A DNA stretch of 64,000 nucleotides, from contig VCJN01001053.1 in the NCBI GenBank assembly GCA_006384855.1, positions 1 to 64,000 on the forward strand, in the 5' to 3' direction. The translations under genes were made by a program, and so were the position numbers. Shown here piece by piece: positions 14,623 to 23,975 of this stretch (positions are counted from its first letter, which is position 1; each line of letters starts with the position of its first letter). The notes beneath the pieces were generated by a model. That model worked only from the letters and a program-made list of their open reading frames with translations. It searched no databases and was not told the origin of the DNA. The stretch comes from Tetraselmis striata. Its lineage: Eukaryota; Chlorophyta; Chlorodendrophyceae; Chlorodendrales; Chlorodendraceae.

Positions 14623-17187
14623 TTATACAATCAAGAATATTTCACGCGAGGCAGAAAGGGTGCGAGATAGAGTGAGAAAGAGAGGGAGGGAAGGAGCAGA
14701 GAGTTGGTCTTGCCACCATCGCATCCATGTGCATTTCCAGAGCTGCTGCATGCTCAGAGCAAGGCCACGGTCTGCACCTTTCGTCACCAGAGTCGCTCCC
14801 TTCCCTTTCCTCTGCTTCGCGGCGCCGTCCTTCTTCACTGCTGCCGACGCCCCATTTGCCTTGCTAGCCTCAGGCTTGCCACTCTGCGGGCGCTTGCGGG
14901 GAGCCGCCCCCGCGTCCTGCTCGGCCTCAGCAGGCGGCTCCTTGCGTGACGGCTTTGGCGCCTTTTTCCCTGCGTCTGTCCCAGCTTCACTCCTACCCGC
15001 CTTCAGTGCCGCCCGCTGCCGCTTGCCCAGCTTCTTGCCCTTGCGCTTACGCTTGTCAGCACCTAACGGCCCACGCCGGAAACACAATCTGGTGCTTAAC
15101 CCCGGCCACGCACCCTCATGAAGGCCGGCAAAAGACTGTCCATGTGGACGGGCAGGGAAGCTCGATTGCTAGCCTACCTTCCGGCATCGCCTTTTTGGCC
15201 GCCGAGGTGACGCGGCTGAAGCGCTCAGCATGTGTTTCCGCTTGCTCTGCCTCCGGGCGCACCCGCTCCGCAAAGCGAAAGTGCGCCGGTGCGTCAGCCG
15301 GCAGCCCGCCGTGATCCGGTAGCTGAGCCTGCACCAGCTTCACGTGGCGCTTGGAGGCCACATGGCTATCCGTGCTCAATGGAGAGGGATACAAACGAGG
15401 GGGTACGCCGTCAGAGGTGAGCAGCCGAAGGCCACTGTATGGATGGCTCGCTTTCCTGCCCTAATACAGGCTTGCACCCGTCTGCCCCTCTGCCTGTAAA
15501 TGATCTATGAGAAAGGGCCGTGGGAACAGGAGGGAACCGCGCAGAATTAGGCATGGGGGCGTGTGTGTGGTGATAACGCGGCAAGCACCTCTTCAGGTTG
15601 CCCTCATTAAGCAGGAGCGGCAGGCTCGGACACGCGATGCATCGTAGCGGGCGGCCGCCGCTGGGGGGCTTATCGCCCAGCCAGTCCGCCAGCTGAGCTG
15701 CGAGCTCCGCGCCATCCTCATCCTCCGCCTCCTCCTCGCTACCCCCATCTGCATCTCAGTTGTAACGAGCGCCGTTAGATTTTGCATCACACAATTTTAT
15801 ATCTCCCATGTAAGGGAATCCCGGCCATCTTTGGGGAACTGAGCGGCTGATCACGAAAGACAAATCACTTTGCATACACGGTTTGCATTCTCAGTCGGCC
15901 GCTGAGCACACCCTACGCCCATCTCATTCAAATCCGCTCACTGCAAGGAGAGCGGCCTCCTTTCAAGGCGTTCCTGGCGCCTGACCCCACTTCGCAGCCA
16001 AGAATGCCCTTAGCACCGCAGCAAGGGCATGTGCATTAACATGCCCGGCCCACAACAGGGAGGGCGCGGAAGTATGGAAGTTGCAGATCCCTAGCAGGAC
16101 AAGGAGTGTGCGTGTGTGAGTGCGTGTTGTGGCGGGGGGGGGGGGGGGGGGGGGGAGCATGTTTATACGCAAGGGGAATCCCGTAAACTTTGCAGATAGC
16201 AGTGTACTTGTATGGCACATGCATCTGCCTGAGTGCACAGCTATGTGAGCGCATCAGAAGGGCTGGCTCACCCTAAGCAGGCAGCACCACAGCCTGCCCT
16301 ACCATGGCACTTGCAGATGCTGGTGCTGAGCACGCAGGCCACGATGAAGGGCGCGGGCAAGTCACCATCAAAGTCGTCCTCGGATATGTCCTCCATCCGT
16401 CCTGTGGGGATGCTGCCATCCAAGCCCTCCACATTGCCATCAGTGTTGATGTCCCGCTCTGTGGATAATCAGTGGAATGTAAGGGTGCCTATGGGATCTA
16501 ATCGCGGTGTGACCTCTCCCCCTCCCCCATTCCTGCCCCTCACTGGCCCGTAAAGAGCACACCCGCTTGCAATAGACCACAGGTGTCTCACCGCTTACAT
16601 CCCCTGAGCCGCCCTCGGAGCCGCTCTCGCTGTCGCTGCCCTCCTGATCGAACTCGCTGTCGCTGTCGCTCTCACTAGTGTCGCCGCCATCCGGGCCGTG
16701 CAGCAGCAACCAGTCACGCCGTTTGTACATCTTGTTGCAGCTGGAGTACAAGGGTGCTTCGCCTGCCCAACAGATGCTGGGGGAGCTGGGCGCTGACGCG
16801 GGTTTGTCGGGCCAAGGTAACTCCCGGGGCTGCTCACGATAGGGTGACGGCGCTGACGGGGAAGATGAGTAGGCCAGATGCTACTTGTATCTACCTACTC
16901 AGACGCGCGGTCGTTTGGTGTTCTCGCACTCGTAGCTTGCGGGTAGTGCCGTGGAGGTGCGCGGCGCAGCGCGACAGCATGTCCTGGTGGGCAACGTCGC
17001 GAATTTGTCGGCGGCAGCCGCCGATGGAGGCACGCGCAGCAGCAGCGCGCGCCGCCGGGGGGCTCGCGAGTCCCCGCGCGCGCGCCGCAATGACATGTGT
17101 TGGACCCAGGGTACCCGGGTACCCTGAATCCGCTTTTTCTCTCTGTGAAATCCGCATTTTTCCAGTGAACAGCTGGCTGCCGTACAT
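14623..17187 (-). CDS. C2H2 zinc-finger protein with acidic centre and basic tail, six exons (unrecognised)
   Basis: Exons, in gene order: 17187-16895, 16740-16592, 16458-16303, 15748-15589, 15365-15178, 15062-14623. All introns are GT-AG and the phases agree, which is the main evidence that this is one real gene. Zinc-finger-like segments are CRRQIRDVAHQDMLSRC in exon 1, CNKMYKRRDWLLLH in exon 2 and a clear C-x2-C...H-x5-H finger (CIAC ... HVASKRH) spanning the exon 4/5 junction. Between them lies a Ser/Asp/Glu-rich stretch (SESDSDSEFDQEG). After the finger come a charged helix (RPEAEQAETHAERF) and a Lys/Arg/Ala-rich tail (DKRKRKGKKLGKRQRAA), suggesting a nuclear or nucleolar protein. I cannot name the family. 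The first ATG and the last 25 residues are uncertain, because an extra exon is possible at either end. A copia element begins just upstream. Confidence 0.7.
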
Positions 17188-17797
17188 GTCCCTAATTTAG
17201 ACCGTATGGCAGAAGTACGGCACCCAGTTGTTACCAAAGCGTGGCACCTAGGCATCTTTGCGATTGGCCTTCTTAGACGGAGAGGTGTCCGTCCTAATTG
17301 ACACCTAGCCGGCTGGTATATATTGTCAGCCTTGGCTCCTTGTAATTCAGTCAACTGCTTTTCCAGAAATATTCCGACTCACCCTTTCTCTCTCGTGACA
17401 GTGCCACTCAACCATCACCACGGCGACAGCGACTACCTTTCGTCCATCGCCCACGGCTCATCATAGCAGCCCTTTGCCTTCCCAGTTTTCATCTCGCTTG
17501 CTGGCACTCGACGTGATTCGACGCATACACGCCGACTCTCGCCGACTCTCTTTCCATCAGTGACAGTGCCACTCAGCCATCACTTCGACAATCTCCCTCC
17601 GACAGGTTTTTGGGCCCTCTCCTTTGGTTCGACGTCTTGCCCCGTGCTCGACGCCTGCCAGAGGCTTCAACCTGCGTGTATCTCGACCCTCTACAGCTTT
17701 CGACGATCGACGGCGACGTGCGACGAGACTTTTCTTCCCACCCGCCCACCCCTACAATTATATACATCTTCCAGGATAAGTGCGCCATCCTTCCACC

Positions 17798-18760
17798 ATG
17801 TCTACCAGCATCACCACCGGCATGATGAGCACCCCTCTGCCTAATCTAGCTGGGAGGAGTGCGGTCAAGAAGGACCCTGGCAGCGACCCACCGCCGCCTG
17901 ACTTTAGTGACAGTGATACCAGTTCTGAAGGCGCTTTCAGCCCACACGGTGCGTCAGACAGTGACTCCAGTGACATCCAGTGGATCAAGCCGTCTGCAGT
18001 GAAGCCGACACTCGACCTCGCGACGGTCCCCGTGAGGGACCAGAACATCTCTACGCGTGATAATGCTCAGGTCATCAAGATCCCCCTCGGCAGCGCCGGC
18101 TACCTGGACACCACCAAGGGCAAAGGCACCCACCATGAGCATCTCACTCTTTTGGCAGCCCTGCGCCACGTGACAGCGAATTATCCCATGGCACTGGCCA
18201 TCGTCGACAGCATCAACATGGACTCCAGGGAGTGTGGATATGCGGCCTGGACGGCCCTATTTACTGAACTCCAGGGGTCTGCCATAGAGGAGCGCATGCG
18301 CTTGGAGGAAGAAATCACAGCAGGCCAGCTCCCGAATGAGCCGGTCCAGGTGTACGTTCGCCGCTGCCGGAACCTCTGGCATTTGTTGCGCAAGGCACAT
18401 GGTCAGTGGACATTCGAGTATGTGGCCATCAACTACCTCATCCCATGACTTCACCCAGCATACGATCACATTGTCGACGCCACCATCTCGGCAACCAATG
18501 TCAACAAAAGGTTGGCAACCATCATAAGTGCCGGACAGAACATGGAGGCGCGCACGCGTCAGCGTCAGCAGCGCGCCCGTTCCCGCACGCCAACCCTCAA
18601 TTCCTGTGACCCAAGGGACCAACTATATGCCACCAGGCCCAACATTGTCTGCATCAGGTGTGACCGTCCATGCCATGCTCAGCAGCAGTGTTTGGCCAGG
18701 CGCCATGCCAACGGCCTGCGTCTCCTGGGTGACACCGCCCCACCCAGCACCATGAACAAC
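17798..18760 (+). pseudogene. Copia gag with CCHC zinc knuckle
   Basis: The frame opens at MSTSITTGMM (17798; an ATG six codons upstream is also in frame). Residues 1-80 are Asp/Ser/Pro-rich. The central part is helical, with GYAAWTALFTELQG and VQVYVRRCRNLWHLL, matching the UBN2-type gag of copia elements (a Trp..LF..Y..L pattern). A TGA at 18446-18448 interrupts the frame, yet the same frame continues with HPAYDHIVDATISATNVNKR. The nucleic-acid-binding knuckle C-x2-C-x4-H-x4-C lies at about 18650-18691 (CIRCDRPCHAQQQC). The stop is a single point change, so this copy was lost recently relative to the heavily frameshifted elements nearby. Confidence 0.75.
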
Positions 18761-19420
18761 CCTATCTATGGTAATTGTAAGCGCGCGCCTGCGGAGCGTC
18801 ACGTCAACAACAACTACACCCACAACCTGCGCAACGACTACAACCATCCAAACATGCCCCAGCGGCTGCAATATTGGTCCACCCAGAGCGACAACGACGA
18901 CCTGCATCGCCATCACCAGCCATTCGGCTTCGTCTCCCCGGCCGGACATCACCACCACGGACATCACCCGGCCAACAACGACTCCGACCAGCAGCCGACA
19001 GGAGGCCAGGAGGCCTACCCTGTAAGGAGTGTGTCCTCGTTGGCACCACACCACAGCGGCCTGCCCGTCATGCTCACCTGCACCACCACCGGCCCAGGAG
19101 GGGCAGCCACCGGAGCGAAGGAGGGGGAGAGCGAGGACGACGAAGACGATGAATTACATGAATCCGGGCACGTCCCCTACTCCAACTCTGATGACAACTT
19201 CCAGTTCCCGTTCTCACACCCATCGCGTGCCCGCCACTTCCGCTCTCAACCCATTCCCACCCCAATTCAACCTCTCTTCCTCGCTTCACCCGCATTCCCA
19301 ACCTCAGCGGCACAGGCGGTCCACGACGTTCATACGGGGCAGGGCGCCCTACGTGGAGACCTGCCACCGCCGCTCCCGATACTCGCCGCTGCCCCATTCC
19401 TCCATATGCCAAGCTCTTCT
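18760..19420 (+). other. Low-complexity linker of the copia polyprotein
   Basis: The gag frame stays open. It encodes His/Asn/Asp/Gln-rich and then acidic (ESEDDEDDELHE) and Pro-rich sequence, with no protease or integrase signature. In a normal copia element this interval holds protease and integrase, so their place is taken by unrelated linker and the methyltransferase. Confidence 0.6.
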
Positions 19421-20090
19421 TTGGTAATCGAGCATCTCTTCTCGCCCTGCCATGGCCCACCGGCATTTGAGGCGGAGACTGTGGTGGAATACGGCTTCTC
19501 CATCCACGCGTTCATCGGCGCCGACCCATCAGGCTCGCACTATGTGGCCACATCACGTACATGTCATCAACAGCGAATACCCGGGCCGCCTACCTCCATC
19601 AGCATTTCAGGATTGTCATGACGGGACCCCCATGAACATCAACGACATCACCATCACGGAGCTGGAGCGGCTGCGCCCGTTCACCCTCGTCATGTCAAGC
19701 ACACAGTGTCAACCATGGTCACGCACGGGCTCACGCCTTGACTGGCAGGACCATCGCTCTCGTGCCTTCTCCTCCATCATCAATTTCATCCGCTTCTACC
19801 TGTCTTCTCAGCCCACACCAGTGCGCTATATTGTGCAGACTTTTCCAGACGCGCTGGCCTTACCTGAAGTACTCTCCGCATTTGGCGCATGCAACATCGT
19901 GCGCGCGGCGTCCTGCGACTCGGCGACTCACCGCGACACCCTTCTGTGGACCATTATCACTCAACCGCAGGACATCCGGAACTGCGTCAACAACGTCGCC
20001 GCCATCAAGCTCGCCGACCCAGGCCCCTTCAGTGGCTACAACATCTACAACCCGGTTGCCGGGCGCACGACCTCGCCTCTCCCTATGCCT
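19420..20090 (+). pseudogene. C5 cytosine DNA methyltransferase domain inside the copia polyprotein
   Basis: In the gag frame up to about 19556, IEHLFSPCHGPPAFE and then GFSIHAFIGADPSG correspond to C5-methyltransferase motif I (the LFSGxGG cofactor loop and following strand) and motif II (the acidic ADP end). After a one-step frameshift near 19556 the next frame gives INSEYPGRL, then LRPFTLVMSSTQCQPWSR, which is motif IV with the catalytic Cys in QCQ (normally PCQ), and GSRLDWQDHRSRAF, the usual downstream D-x-R-S. YIVQTFPDA occupies the ENV motif VI position, with Glu-Asn changed. SATHRDTLLWT resembles motif VIII with its R-(x)-R/L-F/W end. Motifs IX-X are not clear, and the frame decays near 20090. 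The known reaction is methyl transfer from S-adenosylmethionine to cytosine C5. The element would have captured it from a host or virus; this copy is probably dead. Confidence 0.7.
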
Positions 20091-20339
20091 TTCAGTTCTC
20101 CAACGCTGACTACATGATGGACGAATTTCAACCCTCGGGCCAGCAGGACGGGCCCCACGCACCGCCACCCATGCTGCCATCGGCGGCGCTTGCTTCGGCG
20201 CAGGAGGGGCCCCCACCTCCACATCACAACAAGCAGCATCCTCCGCGCCATCAGGGGGGGGGGATGCCACGGCACTGTCGGCTCCTCACACCAGCAAATA
20301 GGCGCAACTACCTTCCCACTATGTCGACCTCAGCGACTA

Positions 20340-21060
20340 CCACCCAACATTGGTGGCCTCCGCGATCGCGGCGGTTGTGCGCCCCCACTCAGCGCGGCTG
20401 ACAGCCCTCGCCTTACCGGCACCCACTGTCCGCGTGTCCACGGCGCCGCGCACCTATCAGGAGGACATCTGCAACACTCGCCCCGATGACTGGAAGACGT
20501 CCATGAACCACAAGATCAACTCTATCACCATGATGGCACTTTTCGTCTGGGTCAACGTCCCTGAGTTTCGACGCAACAACGAGTCCGCGGTCATCCAACA
20601 GATGGCGTGGGCCTTCACGGCGCAGCACAAAGATGGCAACACCATCAGGCGCGAGGCCGGCGTGATCGTCCGCGGCAATATACTCACCACCGGCGAGACC
20701 TATAATGACGCCAAGACCTATGCCCCAGTCGTTCACTTCGTCGCCTTGCGCACCACCATTGCTATCACGGTTCAACTCACCTCGGAGCTCTACCAGTTCG
20801 ACGTCCGATGTGTTTTCCTCAACGCCGACCGAAATAATGCAGATACTATGACTACATCTCCCCCGGCTGTCGCCATAAGGACCGGGCTTGGAACCCCGTT
20901 GAGGCACTCTACGATCTGCCGCAGGCACCCAAGGCATGGTTTCTGTGCTTTTCTTCCTTTCTACGTGACTTCGACTTCATCGGCTCCGCACCGGACGGCG
21001 TGATCCATCTTCATCGGGAAACCTGCATCATTGACATTCTGACTACCTTTCACATGACCG
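20340..21060 (+). pseudogene. Copia reverse transcriptase, N-terminal half
   Basis: The frame from 20341 reads HYVDLSDYHPTLVAS and then the copia RT entry: DDWKTSMNHKI (the equivalent of W..A...E), KDGNTIRREAGVIVRGN, TYNDAKTYAPVVHFVALRT (matching copia 'TFAPVV...R'), and ELYQFDVRCVFLNAD, which is RT motif A with the first catalytic Asp. After 20830 the frame degrades; ETCIIDILTTFHMTESKPRR at about 21018 is the downstream copia segment before RNase H. The YVDD motif C falls in the missing interval, so several hundred bases are deleted. The copia identity is firm. Confidence 0.8.
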
Positions 21061-21126
21061 AGAGCAAGCCTCGCCGTTTGCCTTGCACGCTGAATACCAA
21101 CTTTCATAACACTGCAGTCACCTACC

Positions 21127-21640
21127 GTGCGCACGTTCGGAGGCAGCGTGGCCATGTTTACTGCCGCATCGGAGTTCGTGGCGCTTTGCGGGGTCTGCAC
21201 ATGTCTGGCGGTTATTCACGTTCTTCTGCGCCAAGCTCAGCCACCCCACTGCTGCCCCGGTGCAAGTATGCGGGGACAACCGCGCATGCATCGTTCAGGT
21301 GCAACATGGCATAATTACATGCGCGGAACGCCACATTGACCTCCAGTTTCAGTATGCGGTCCAACTCTACCAAGACGGCATCGTCAACATGCACTACACG
21401 CCTACCCCGGCCCACCTGGCCGACTTCTTCGCTAAAGCGCTGCCGCTGACTACCTTTCTTCATTTCCGCGCTTTCCTGATGGGGTCATCCGGGAGCCTTG
21501 CGTTGCGCCTCTGCCGCCATCAGTCCTGCGTCCGCGGTACTCCACAGGACTGTACGAGGTACTGTCCCAACACCCCTCCCGGTTTCGAAGAGAGGGAGGA
21601 CATGGAAGTCTGGATAGAGATCCTAGGACCTGAGCCATAG
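21127..21640 (+). pseudogene. Copia RNase H domain
   Basis: A frame starting near 21140 gives FTAASEFVALCGV, the S/T-x-E-(A/F)-E-(Y/F)-x-A-L block of copia RNase H, with the middle Glu as a catalytic residue. After a frameshift, QVCGDNRACIVQVQH is the D-N-x-x (C/S) strand. AERHIDLQFQYAVQLY and TPAHLADFFAKALP match the terminal 'KHIDIRYHFIRE ... ADIFTKAL' block. The reading frame then runs on to a stop at 21638-21640 through sequence of no known function. Confidence 0.8.
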
Positions 21641-21970
21641 AATCCGGAAACATCCGCGCTTGAGCCTTGATGCAGGAGAATTTCTGGGATTTGATGATCG
21701 CGTCACCGGAAGCTGCGAATCGGTCTTACACCGAATATAGCGGAAGAAGGGGAACCCATGAAATCTTGAAATGCTTCAAGCGGGAGTCGAACCCGGGTCT
21801 GTTGTCATACATGCTCGCCACCTAAGCTCCGAAACCATATTGAGATATCAAGCTCGAAAAGGGTGCCGATCGGACTTGGATGTCATCATCCGATATTGTA
21901 GAGCTTGAATACCCGTCTGAACCGGGCCGAGGACCACACCACAGGACTGTACGAGGTACTGTCCCAACAA
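21538..21970 (+). repeat. 30-bp direct repeat pair downstream of the copia RNase H
   Basis: ccacaggactgtacgaggta followed by ctgtcccaaca occurs at about 21540 and again at about 21939, 399 bp apart. It may mark a terminal repeat of the element or a later duplication. No counterpart is seen at the element's 5' end. Confidence 0.5.
21770..21845 (-). other. tRNA-derived fragment
   Basis: On the minus strand, cccgggttcgactcccgc forms a 4-of-5-paired T-arm with a TTCGACT loop. An upstream gcttaggtgg segment pairs partly with ttgaagc to give an acceptor-like stem. Only about 55 nt separate the ends, so the D or anticodon arm is missing. It is a pseudo-tRNA or the head of a SINE, not a functional tRNA. 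Confidence 0.35.
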
Positions 21971-23590
21971 CATGAATAGGAGGGGTACGGAAGAATGGAT
22001 CCAAGCAGGGAGGGGCCGCATAATTTGCCAATGAAGCGACTCGCTGCTTACATTTTGGTAGGAAAATGTGCCAACGGGGCCATGCAATCCGCAATGAGAT
22101 AAACGGAGGGTGGGAGGGCGTGCAAGGTGTCAAGCTGGCGCAAAGGAGAAGGTGCACTCCCGTCGCTGCTCCGGTGCGCACCGCCGCCTCGCCAGAGCTC
22201 CACGGCTTTGTGGGCCTGCTGAAGCAAGATCAAAAGAAGGCGGGTGGGATCGTCACGCACAACACCAACGCGGTCAAGAATAACATGGCCGCCACGCAAG
22301 CCTTCCCCTGCGGCCCCGGTCGGGGTGCTACTTATTAGGACTACAACCACCAACAGTTCGCCTACCATCTTCAAACTCGCTGCCTTCGGCAGCAGCTTCG
22401 CGTGCTTGTGCGCGTGAGGGTCGCAGAGGTTGATAAAGTCCGCATATAGGTTCCTTTTCCCGGTAGTGAGTCGTCGTGCCCCGCACATGCGTCACATCAT
22501 CAGCATCGATAGACAACCCCTCGGTAATGTGGTTTTCCCAACTCGTGCGCCCGAAGTCGTTTTTCGTTACTATTGCCATGGATTTGCAGCTGGGACGTTT
22601 TTGGGTGGCGATGCGCACGGTAAGGAATTAAAGCTAGGGGGTCCCCGTTAGGGGGGCTAACACCTCATCCCCCGAAGCCGAGTCGCATTACATGCCTTCG
22701 TGGGGCCCGGAGTGGAGCACCCTCTTGCAGTGTTCAACTCTTGAGGTTATTAGGTGAGGTGGACGCGCTCGGCACCATGCATGGCGGTTGCTCGCCACAT
22801 TTGTCCACGACGACAACTACGCGTACCGCAACAAATCGGTGCGGACTGCGGAGGAGGACGTCCGTGTCGTCGGGACGGCTGCTAGCCGTCCTGCAAGACA
22901 CTTCAACCCGGCCCTTGTGTCCTCGCAGCAGGGCGTCGTGCCATCGACGGTCGTTACACGTTGTGGTCTTCCGTAACTACCCGCGTAATTGGTCCGGTAT
23001 GGGGATGGCGCGCCGCTCATGCGCCTGTGTTTTGAGAGGGCTCGTTGCCCTCGCCCTAACCGTGCCGCAGCAACGTCTGCTCTGGTCGCAGTGGGAGGCG
23101 TCTACGCGGCTCGTTCCGGCGCGTCTCCGACGCATCTTACTGTAGCGTCGTCGTGCGTCACAAGGACCACAACAACCCGCAGCTACCCGCCATGGGCGGG
23201 GCAGCTCTAGCACCTTGGCTCTTACTGCCAACTCGTACTCGCCCTATTTGTGCCGCTGTGCTGGGCACTCGTCGCCAACCTGCCCGCTCATGCTGCTGGC
23301 TTACAATTCCAATTCATGCCGTGCGCCGTTGCAATTCATGTGCGCGTGGCAATTGCATGGCATGCATGGCGCCGTTGAGGAACGGCGCTTTGGTTTCGCG
23401 ACACGTCCGGCCTATTTCAGGCCAACGTTTACGCCGTCCACATCGCCCATCTACGTCCGTTTGTCTGCGTTTGCGCCTTGATCGAGGTTCTTAGACCTCT
23501 CGGCGCGAGACCCTTCTACCTCTCAAGACATCTTCCGCTTTCGTTTGGTCGGCGCGCCTTCCGATTGCCCACGCTCGTAGTCGCAAACAA
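21971..23590. other. Unassigned sequence, probably decayed elements
   Basis: Open minus-strand frames at 22048-22488 and 22328-22618 (with DADDVTHVRG, faintly like an RT ADD box) and plus-strand frames at 22741-23494 carry no motif I can defend. Because the 3' flank at 23600-23975 matches the repeat downstream of the tyrosine recombinase at 2097-2555, this may be the body of another DIRS-like element. Confidence 0.3.
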
Positions 23591-23594
23591 ACCG

Positions 23595-23975
23595 TGTGCA
23601 ACTGGCAAAACCAGACTGGATTGTATCTTTGAAGTGATCTAAACTTGTTTATGGGGTTTCCCAACAATTTAACTGTCCTAGTGCAACCTGTACGATACGG
23701 TCTAGTGGTGCGTTTAACCGGTACCATCAGGTTTCGTCACGGGCTCCCCCATCGCCCGCGAGCCCTGCGCTCCCAAACAGCCATCAGTAGCTCGCCTGCC
23801 ATCATCCAGCTCGTTGCCTCGCAGCACCGCTCTCCCGTTTTTCGTTTCCGCCATGCAGGCTCCTCCTCCGACCCCCCCCCCCCCCCCCCCCCCCCCGGGG
23901 TGAATCTTCCTTGCAATAAAATGACGCTCCTTCAGCACATTTTTTGGCAAAACCAGACTCGATTGCATGTAGTTT
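23595..23975 (+). repeat. Repeat block flanked by two TTGGCAAAACCAGACT motifs (second locus)
   Basis: actggcaaaaccagactgga at about 23602 and ttggcaaaaccagactcga at about 23945 flank about 340 bp that includes tttatggggtttccc and a 25-nt C run (23872-23896). The organisation parallels 2515-2830. Confidence 0.5.

Follow-up and report, generated by a model that had tools for sequence, protein, structure and literature searches.

Retrotransposons that encode a cytosine-5 DNA methyltransferase (DNMT) pose a puzzle, as a genomic parasite then bears a type of enzyme that hosts use against parasites. Published cases are LINE and DIRS elements in Symbiodinium and a Gypsy element in Klebsormidium, and the Copia elements of Symbiodinium are described, in the available parts of the same study, as lacking any DNMT domain (PMC5890265). 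Another paper mentions, in the text accessible to us, some DNMT3 sequences in 'LTR Copia and DIRS' elements, credited to that study, whose LTR element is Gypsy (PMC12344493); we take 'Copia' there, with some hesitation, as a slip for Gypsy. No report of a chlorophyte copia element with a DNMT was found in the open-licence PMC literature. The question is raised by a locus in the chlorophyte alga Tetraselmis striata, within the first 64,000 nucleotides of contig VCJN01001053.1 (assembly GCA_006384855.1), the whole stretch of DNA analysed here and referred to as the window. A sequence-only reading of the window had claimed a DNMT domain inside a Ty1/copia polyprotein. We asked whether the domain belongs to the element, where it came from and what it might do there.

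A decayed copia element with a truncated DNMT

The window contains one decayed Ty1/copia LTR element at 17097-21559, in which a truncated C5-DNMT lies between gag and the reverse transcriptase (RT). Its anatomy was read with a full-length relative, P0048, as tblastn query (Table 1). The motifs LFSPCHG, QCQPWSR and HRDTLLWT are present where the sequence-only reading had placed them, and they are spread, as it had noted, over two frames (2 and 3), with the change of frame near 19521-19535. The Pfam search that it had proposed recovered the RT (RVT_2, E 4e-8) and was less decisive elsewhere: DNA_methylase (PF00145) matches the frame-3 ORF with an E-value of 4e-4, but its 20.3 bits stay just below the Pfam cut-off of 22, and the CCHC knuckle is weak (E 0.016).

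The DNMT of the window copy ends after motif VIII, with the catalytic Cys present and the motif VI Glu gone. The gag remnant has one internal stop (18446-18448). Residues 910-1496 of P0048, comprising the DNMT end, protease and integrase core, find no significant tblastn match in the window, and the YVDD stretch (residues 1804-1864) is likewise absent from the window RT. No 3' LTR follows the internal part, so that a single LTR remains in the window. Judged by its own features, with one LTR and with protease and integrase absent, the copy is a defective Ty1/copia member. The gag stop, the frame change in the DNMT and further ones in the RT, together with the missing protease, integrase core and YVDD counterparts, mark it as dead: it is a relic, shortened by an internal deletion, of a Ty1/copia family with a DNMT.

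Table 1. Features of the copia element in the window.
Feature	Position	Strand	Basis or remark
5' LTR, TG...CA	17097..17604	+	88-95% to both LTRs of other copies where whole; ends identical
gag remnant, frame 2	17798..19430	+	tblastn of P0048, 63% over 17597-19531
CCHC knuckle	18650-18691	+	zf-CCHC_5, weak, under its cut-off
Truncated C5-DNMT	19427..20027	+	PF00145 on frame-3 ORF; tblastn of P0048, 64% over 19521-20027
Motif I, LFSPCHG	19436-19456	+	frame 2
Motif IV with Cys, QCQPWSR	19704-19724	+	frame 3
Motif VI position, Glu missing	19833-19856	+	VQTFP; ENVP in full-length relatives
Motif VIII, HRDTLLWT	19929-19952	+	frame 3
Deletion junction	20016..20066	+	DNMT ...DPGP, then directly the SH3-like stretch FSGYNIYNPVAGR (SH3 read by eye)
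Linker and RT remnant, several frames	20087..21110	+	RVT_2, E 4e-8 and 0.007 on two ORFs; tblastn pieces
RNase H remnant	21145..21490	+	tblastn of P0048, 61-74%, two pieces
Last internal stretch common to other copies	21491..21559	+	blastn matches to most copies stop at 21549-21559, where the LTR then begins

Two further observations concern the surroundings of the element. A copy on another contig (L009, C292) is 97% alike to window 17160-23595, over 6.4 kb and thus beyond the element end, and stems from a duplication of the stretch or from the other haplotype of the locus. Window 22306-23213 is 78% alike to a stretch adjoining copy L015 and is a second repeat.

Full-length relatives encode the DNMT within one polyprotein

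Taken alone, a domain that is split over two frames and falls below the Pfam cut-off could be a chance neighbour, a nested insertion or an assembly artefact. The sequence-only reading had pointed to volvocine genomes as the place to look for intact relatives; T. striata is not volvocine but a chlorodendrophyte among the core chlorophytes, and full-length relatives were found in its own genome (224.1 Mb in 2903 contigs). They have the order gag, CCHC, DNMT, protease, integrase, RT and RNase H in one frame, and the DNMT is carried by five copia families (F1-F5).

The F1 element (L029) has 481-bp LTRs without a single difference that run TG...CA, a target site duplication (TSD) ATGTC and a single frame of 2162 aa. 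In F2 (L030) the LTRs, which begin TG and end TAGA, are 99.4% alike over 470 columns, GGATG is seen by eye on both flanks, and the single frame measures 2299 aa. Pfam places zf-CCHC (in F2; by eye in F1), DNA_methylase, Pol_BBD (in F2), gag_pre-integrs, rve, SH3_retrovirus and RVT_2 in this order, and DNA_methylase scores above its cut-off in two full-length relatives (3.9e-9 and 7e-12) with integrase and RVT_2 in the same frame. F4 (L050), with an open frame of 2147 aa common to seven places, repeats the order from DNA_methylase (E 0.0012, below cut-off) to RVT_2. In F3 (L038 with L052) the domains run from DNA_methylase through SH3, where the copy read stops, and in F5 (L051) Pfam finds DNA_methylase, Pol_BBD, pre-integrase and SH3, with the integrase and the RT start recognised by eye. 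The gag part was examined in F1, F2 and F4, and the copia pol order of protease, integrase, RT (RVT_2) and RNase H is present in P0048, P0049 and F4 (protease and RNase H by eye). An exact TSD flanks 8 of the 12 elements in which two LTRs were detected (L029 and copies of the short subfamily described below). Some insertions of the full-length relatives are recent.

The arrangement also occurs in an ENA protein of 2106 aa (P0045), which has gag, CCHC, DNMT, Pol_BBD, pre-integrase, rve, SH3 and RVT_2 in order. As its best DNMT match in the T. striata genome is 37%, we take it as a copia element from another organism. Many copies of the same order, single frames that span DNMT, integrase and RT, whole elements with exact TSDs and a foreign copia element built alike thus all argue against an accidental association; the full-length single frames rule out a chance neighbour or nested insertion, and to this whole class of explanations, assembly artefact included, we assign virtually no chance. 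The claim of a C5-DNMT inside a Ty1/copia polyprotein of a chlorophyte is thereby upheld.

The sequence-only reading had named related copies with gag and RT contiguous and no DNMT as the sign of a chance neighbour. None was seen in the window family. A copia element without DNMT does exist in the genome (L049, ORF of 1561 aa), where gag and protease have no DNMT between them; it is 40% alike in the integrase and is a different family, found, among the matches listed, in at least 42 places at 39-40%, one of which was read. In integrase and RT trees, 30% of the bootstrap replicates have a branch that separates elements with the DNMT from those without; L049 may fall inside or outside the DNMT group, and copia elements may have captured the enzyme once or more often. 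L049 (G000:C1190:3000-8600) has the protease motif KNSGA in place of DSGA, yet its family occupies those many places.

A short subfamily formed by internal deletion

The 671-bp region of the window that holds the DNMT recurs in at least 39 other places of the genome, at 91-97% and over practically its whole length (40 of 132 candidates scored). A search with the DNMT region of L010, a sister copy, gives 37 matches, which reach 88% and are all T. striata gene models (Tetstr1). The full-length DNMT of L029, used as query, has at least 128 matches (125 of 522 candidates scored); among those listed, 21 span the domain at a level of at least 96%, and 19 of these are free of stops. A group of 41 of the 128, the window copy included, stops at query residue 207-209 with 59-72% identity; a further match with the same endpoint (C291, 95%) is omitted from this count, its second half being listed apart. 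The common endpoint points to a single deletion, which takes out the protease, the integrase core and, from the DNMT, the target-recognition part together with motifs IX-X. The window copy belongs to the non-autonomous subfamily made by this deletion, a state that the sequence-only reading had not remarked upon, as it had not the full-length families or the LINE described below.

Twenty copies of the short subfamily were fetched with their flanks. Seven have a single open frame of 1203-1237 aa, and in all six open-frame copies compared the motif IV Cys is replaced by Leu. A script detected two LTRs in 11 of the 20, differing at between 0 of 481 and 26 of 503 positions, and an exact 5-bp TSD flanks seven of these 11. 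Near-identical LTRs and exact TSDs show that the shortened copies, which lack the DNMT end, the protease and an integrase of their own, inserted recently too.

Selection was compared among six short copies (L022 not included). The dN/dS ratios are 0.66 for gag, 0.43 for the DNMT remnant and 0.93 for the rest, and against L029 they are 0.42, 0.52 and 0.56, respectively. Among these six copies, relaxed constraint on the DNMT remnant was not apparent, 0.43 being not clearly above the 0.66 of gag. One gene model (P0021, Tetstr1) appears chimeric, with the DNMT start of the short subfamily joined to a protease and integrase of the full-length type, which suggests either recombination or joined gene models.

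Motifs and selection in the retroelement DNMT

An alignment of six retroelement DNMTs (F1, F2, F3, P0045 and two from LINEs) has 38 invariant columns, amongst them PPCQP, ENV, GS...R....W.N and, near the end, MG and D.N, and the conserved columns run from motif IV to motif X. Motif IV reads PPCAP in F4 and PCCEP in F5, both of which have ENV. For every one of F1-F5, the copy read thus keeps the putative catalytic residues, the motif IV Cys and the ENV Glu, and the Cys and the motif VI Glu are found also in P0045 and the LINE DNMT. Searched with a profile of the retroelement DNMTs, the best solved protein is DNMT3A (2.8e-10; 49 distinct sequences matched), followed by DNMT2 (3.1e-9), HaeIII (1.3e-8) and then HhaI; the DNMT3A match depends on motifs IV-VIII, with motif I and the C-terminal pieces weak alone. 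Pfam detected no PWWP or ADD domain in the elements examined.

All nine pairs between F2 and F2b have a dN/dS of 0.17-0.22 in the DNMT domain (Nei-Gojobori; the pairs are not independent), and over all pairs with a defined ratio (35 of 36) the values range from 0.17 to 1.11, the higher ones at small divergence. In F2, the sole family tested, these substitution ratios show a DNMT under purifying selection.

The domain might nevertheless bind nucleic acids or play a structural role in the polyprotein and no longer methylate DNA, which would agree with the variable motif IV in F4 and F5 and with the open frame that recently inserted short copies keep through their Cys-less remnant. We consider this quite unlikely, since Cys and ENV Glu are retained in the one copy read per family and in the LINE, and since the dN/dS ratio in F2 is about 0.2.

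The T. striata genome contains at least 123 scored PF00145 matches, a large share of them inside long retroelement frames. A free-standing C5-methyltransferase-like gene of about 325 aa, with EQS in place of ENV (L043, L044, L046; G000:C1993, C1230, C493), is a repeat with several near-identical copies, of which C1230 has three.

A related DNMT in a LINE

The genome also has a LINE that encodes a DNMT, located after the RT in the same frame (L047, L037, L048; G000:C2687:15850-27600). The open frame on C2687 (2448 aa read of 3505 listed) matches RVT_1 (7e-26), PCIF1_WW (3.8e-15), DNA_methylase (7.2e-10) and RNase_H (5.6e-9). PCIF1-type domains belong to an mRNA cap adenosine methyltransferase family. 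The PCIF1 match lies just before the DNMT match on the same strand in four places (C596, C653, C2172, C2687), and two long proteins, P0046 and P0047, are similar to the DNMT-bearing LINE. As far as the matches listed and the accessible text of the literature on PCIF1 and retrotransposons go, no retroelement carrying PCIF1 is described.

In a DNMT tree of 33 rows, including 16 bacterial, viral and genomic non-retroelement rows and one DNMT3A row, the eight copia and eight LINE-type rows form one clade (99/99, stem 1.18), within which the copia rows (95/82) and the LINE-type rows (96/94) each form a clade in turn. Five of the eight LINE-type rows are short proteins assigned by likeness (P0050-P0054), and one of the eight copia rows is partial (P0055). 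The DNMT3A row, built from three fragments, is sister to the joint clade at 80/28, which is weak. One DNMT3-like lineage could have moved, as a mobile epigenetic module, between LINE and Ty1/copia elements and between distant hosts. In such a history, selection would maintain the enzyme in the copia families for the methylation of their own cDNA, and non-autonomous relatives would have shed it while living off them; we offer this as a tentative reading, somewhat short of probable. A DNMT clade common to LINE and copia elements would be new in principle.

Alternatively, copia and LINE elements captured the enzyme independently from an unsampled host gene family, with no transfer between retroelements. 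The tree leaves room for this, as it has a single DNMT3 row and was built without ChloroDNMT, DNMT1/2/5/6 or the published dinoflagellate and charophyte retroelement DNMTs, and T. striata may have more intron-bearing DNMT genes than a six-frame search reveals. The joint clade at 99/99, with its stem of 1.18 and its two internal clades, speaks for common descent within retroelements instead, and independent capture is in our view conceivable without being the probable course. The chlorophyte copia DNMT may be a capture separate from the dinoflagellate and charophyte ones, as the sequence-only reading had supposed, or may share a source with them. Scans of viral and prokaryote contigs for a donor gave mostly short matches around motif IV, and by pattern search none of 131 loci (80 of 124 confirmed viral ones, 51 of 51 prokaryote ones) combined motif IV with a DNMT3-like motif VIII in one forward frame; the donor may belong to a viral lineage outside the contigs scanned.

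Possible role of the DNMT

The DNMT is positioned between the nucleocapsid part of Gag and the protease; it would therefore be made within the Gag-Pol polyprotein and could be packaged. Freed by the element's own protease and carried in the virus-like particle, it would methylate cytosines in the fresh cDNA or at the insertion site, no later than integration, and the new copy would thereby be marked or quietened; the short subfamily would use the proteins of its full-length relatives. As the cDNA is made in the same particle by reverse transcription, self-methylation is the simplest reading, and we infer it from domain order. A study of other retroelement DNMTs reportedly proposed self-methylation as well. 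As a whole, the account of a relic of a DNMT-bearing family, whose Gag-Pol enzyme methylates new cDNA or insertion sites and whose proteins serve the short subfamily, appears to us reasonably probable. The recent insertion of the short subfamily, presumably with its relatives' proteins, implies that transposition does not require the DNMT in cis, and the subfamily's spread with Leu in place of the motif IV Cys in all six copies compared suggests that the DNMT may be dispensable.

Decay of CpG sites, as methylated copies might show, was not detected: transitions affect 40 of 557 CpG and 94 of 1566 other C/G sites (p 0.36, without L018, L025 and L028), and 37 of 423 versus 111 of 1239 when L018 alone is left out (p 1.0), its 3' part not being the element. 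Methylation that is low, very recent or outside CpG would escape this test. The elements have a CpG observed/expected ratio of 0.81-0.93, the window one of 1.00.

The enzyme could instead act on the host genome, altering its methylation and so allowing the element to evade or misdirect silencing. It has been kept in five families of one genome, the CpG test gives no hint of marked copies, and retroelement DNMTs are tied to unusual dinoflagellate methylomes in the available text of PMC5890265. Synthesis inside Gag-Pol, in contrast, favours packaging over nuclear action, and we regard host-directed methylation as unlikely. A single genome, that of T. striata, combines a family with both full-length and DNMT-dead subfamilies, a copia element that lacks the DNMT and a LINE whose DNMT belongs to the same clade.

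Comparison with known systems

BARE2 and TR-GAG are non-autonomous LTR derivatives that keep gag and have lost pol. The short subfamily resembles them in its internal deletion, its retained LTRs and gag and its recent spread without an integrase of its own, and differs in the DNMT fragment that it retains. DNMT3A, besides being the best profile match of the retroelement DNMTs, shares with them the motif VIII pattern R...W.N but is distant in that its motif IV Cys stands in a GSPCN setting.

Copia is a further superfamily with DNMT capture, represented by very young copies, and no report was found for this algal class in the open-licence literature. The closest parallel is KnitGypsy-Dnmt3 of Klebsormidium nitens, likewise an LTR element of a green-lineage alga with the DNMT in its polyprotein (in Pol) and, according to the parts of the source at hand, with purifying selection on the DNMT as in family F2 of T. 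striata (PMC5890265). It differs in being a Gypsy element from a streptophyte rather than a copia element from a chlorophyte, and its repeats are described there as DIRS-like. SymbioLINE-Dnmt and SymbioDIRS-Dnmt3 are, in the same accessible description, multi-copy retroelements with a DNMT as in T. striata, and they include a LINE (PMC5890265); the SymbioLINE DNMT is encoded in an ORF upstream of the RT, whereas that of the T. striata LINE follows the RT in the same frame and is accompanied by a PCIF1-type domain. Compared by description, SymbioLINE, SymbioDIRS and KnitGypsy thus differ in superfamily and architecture from the T. striata copia elements, in which the DNMT lies between the CCHC knuckle and the protease.
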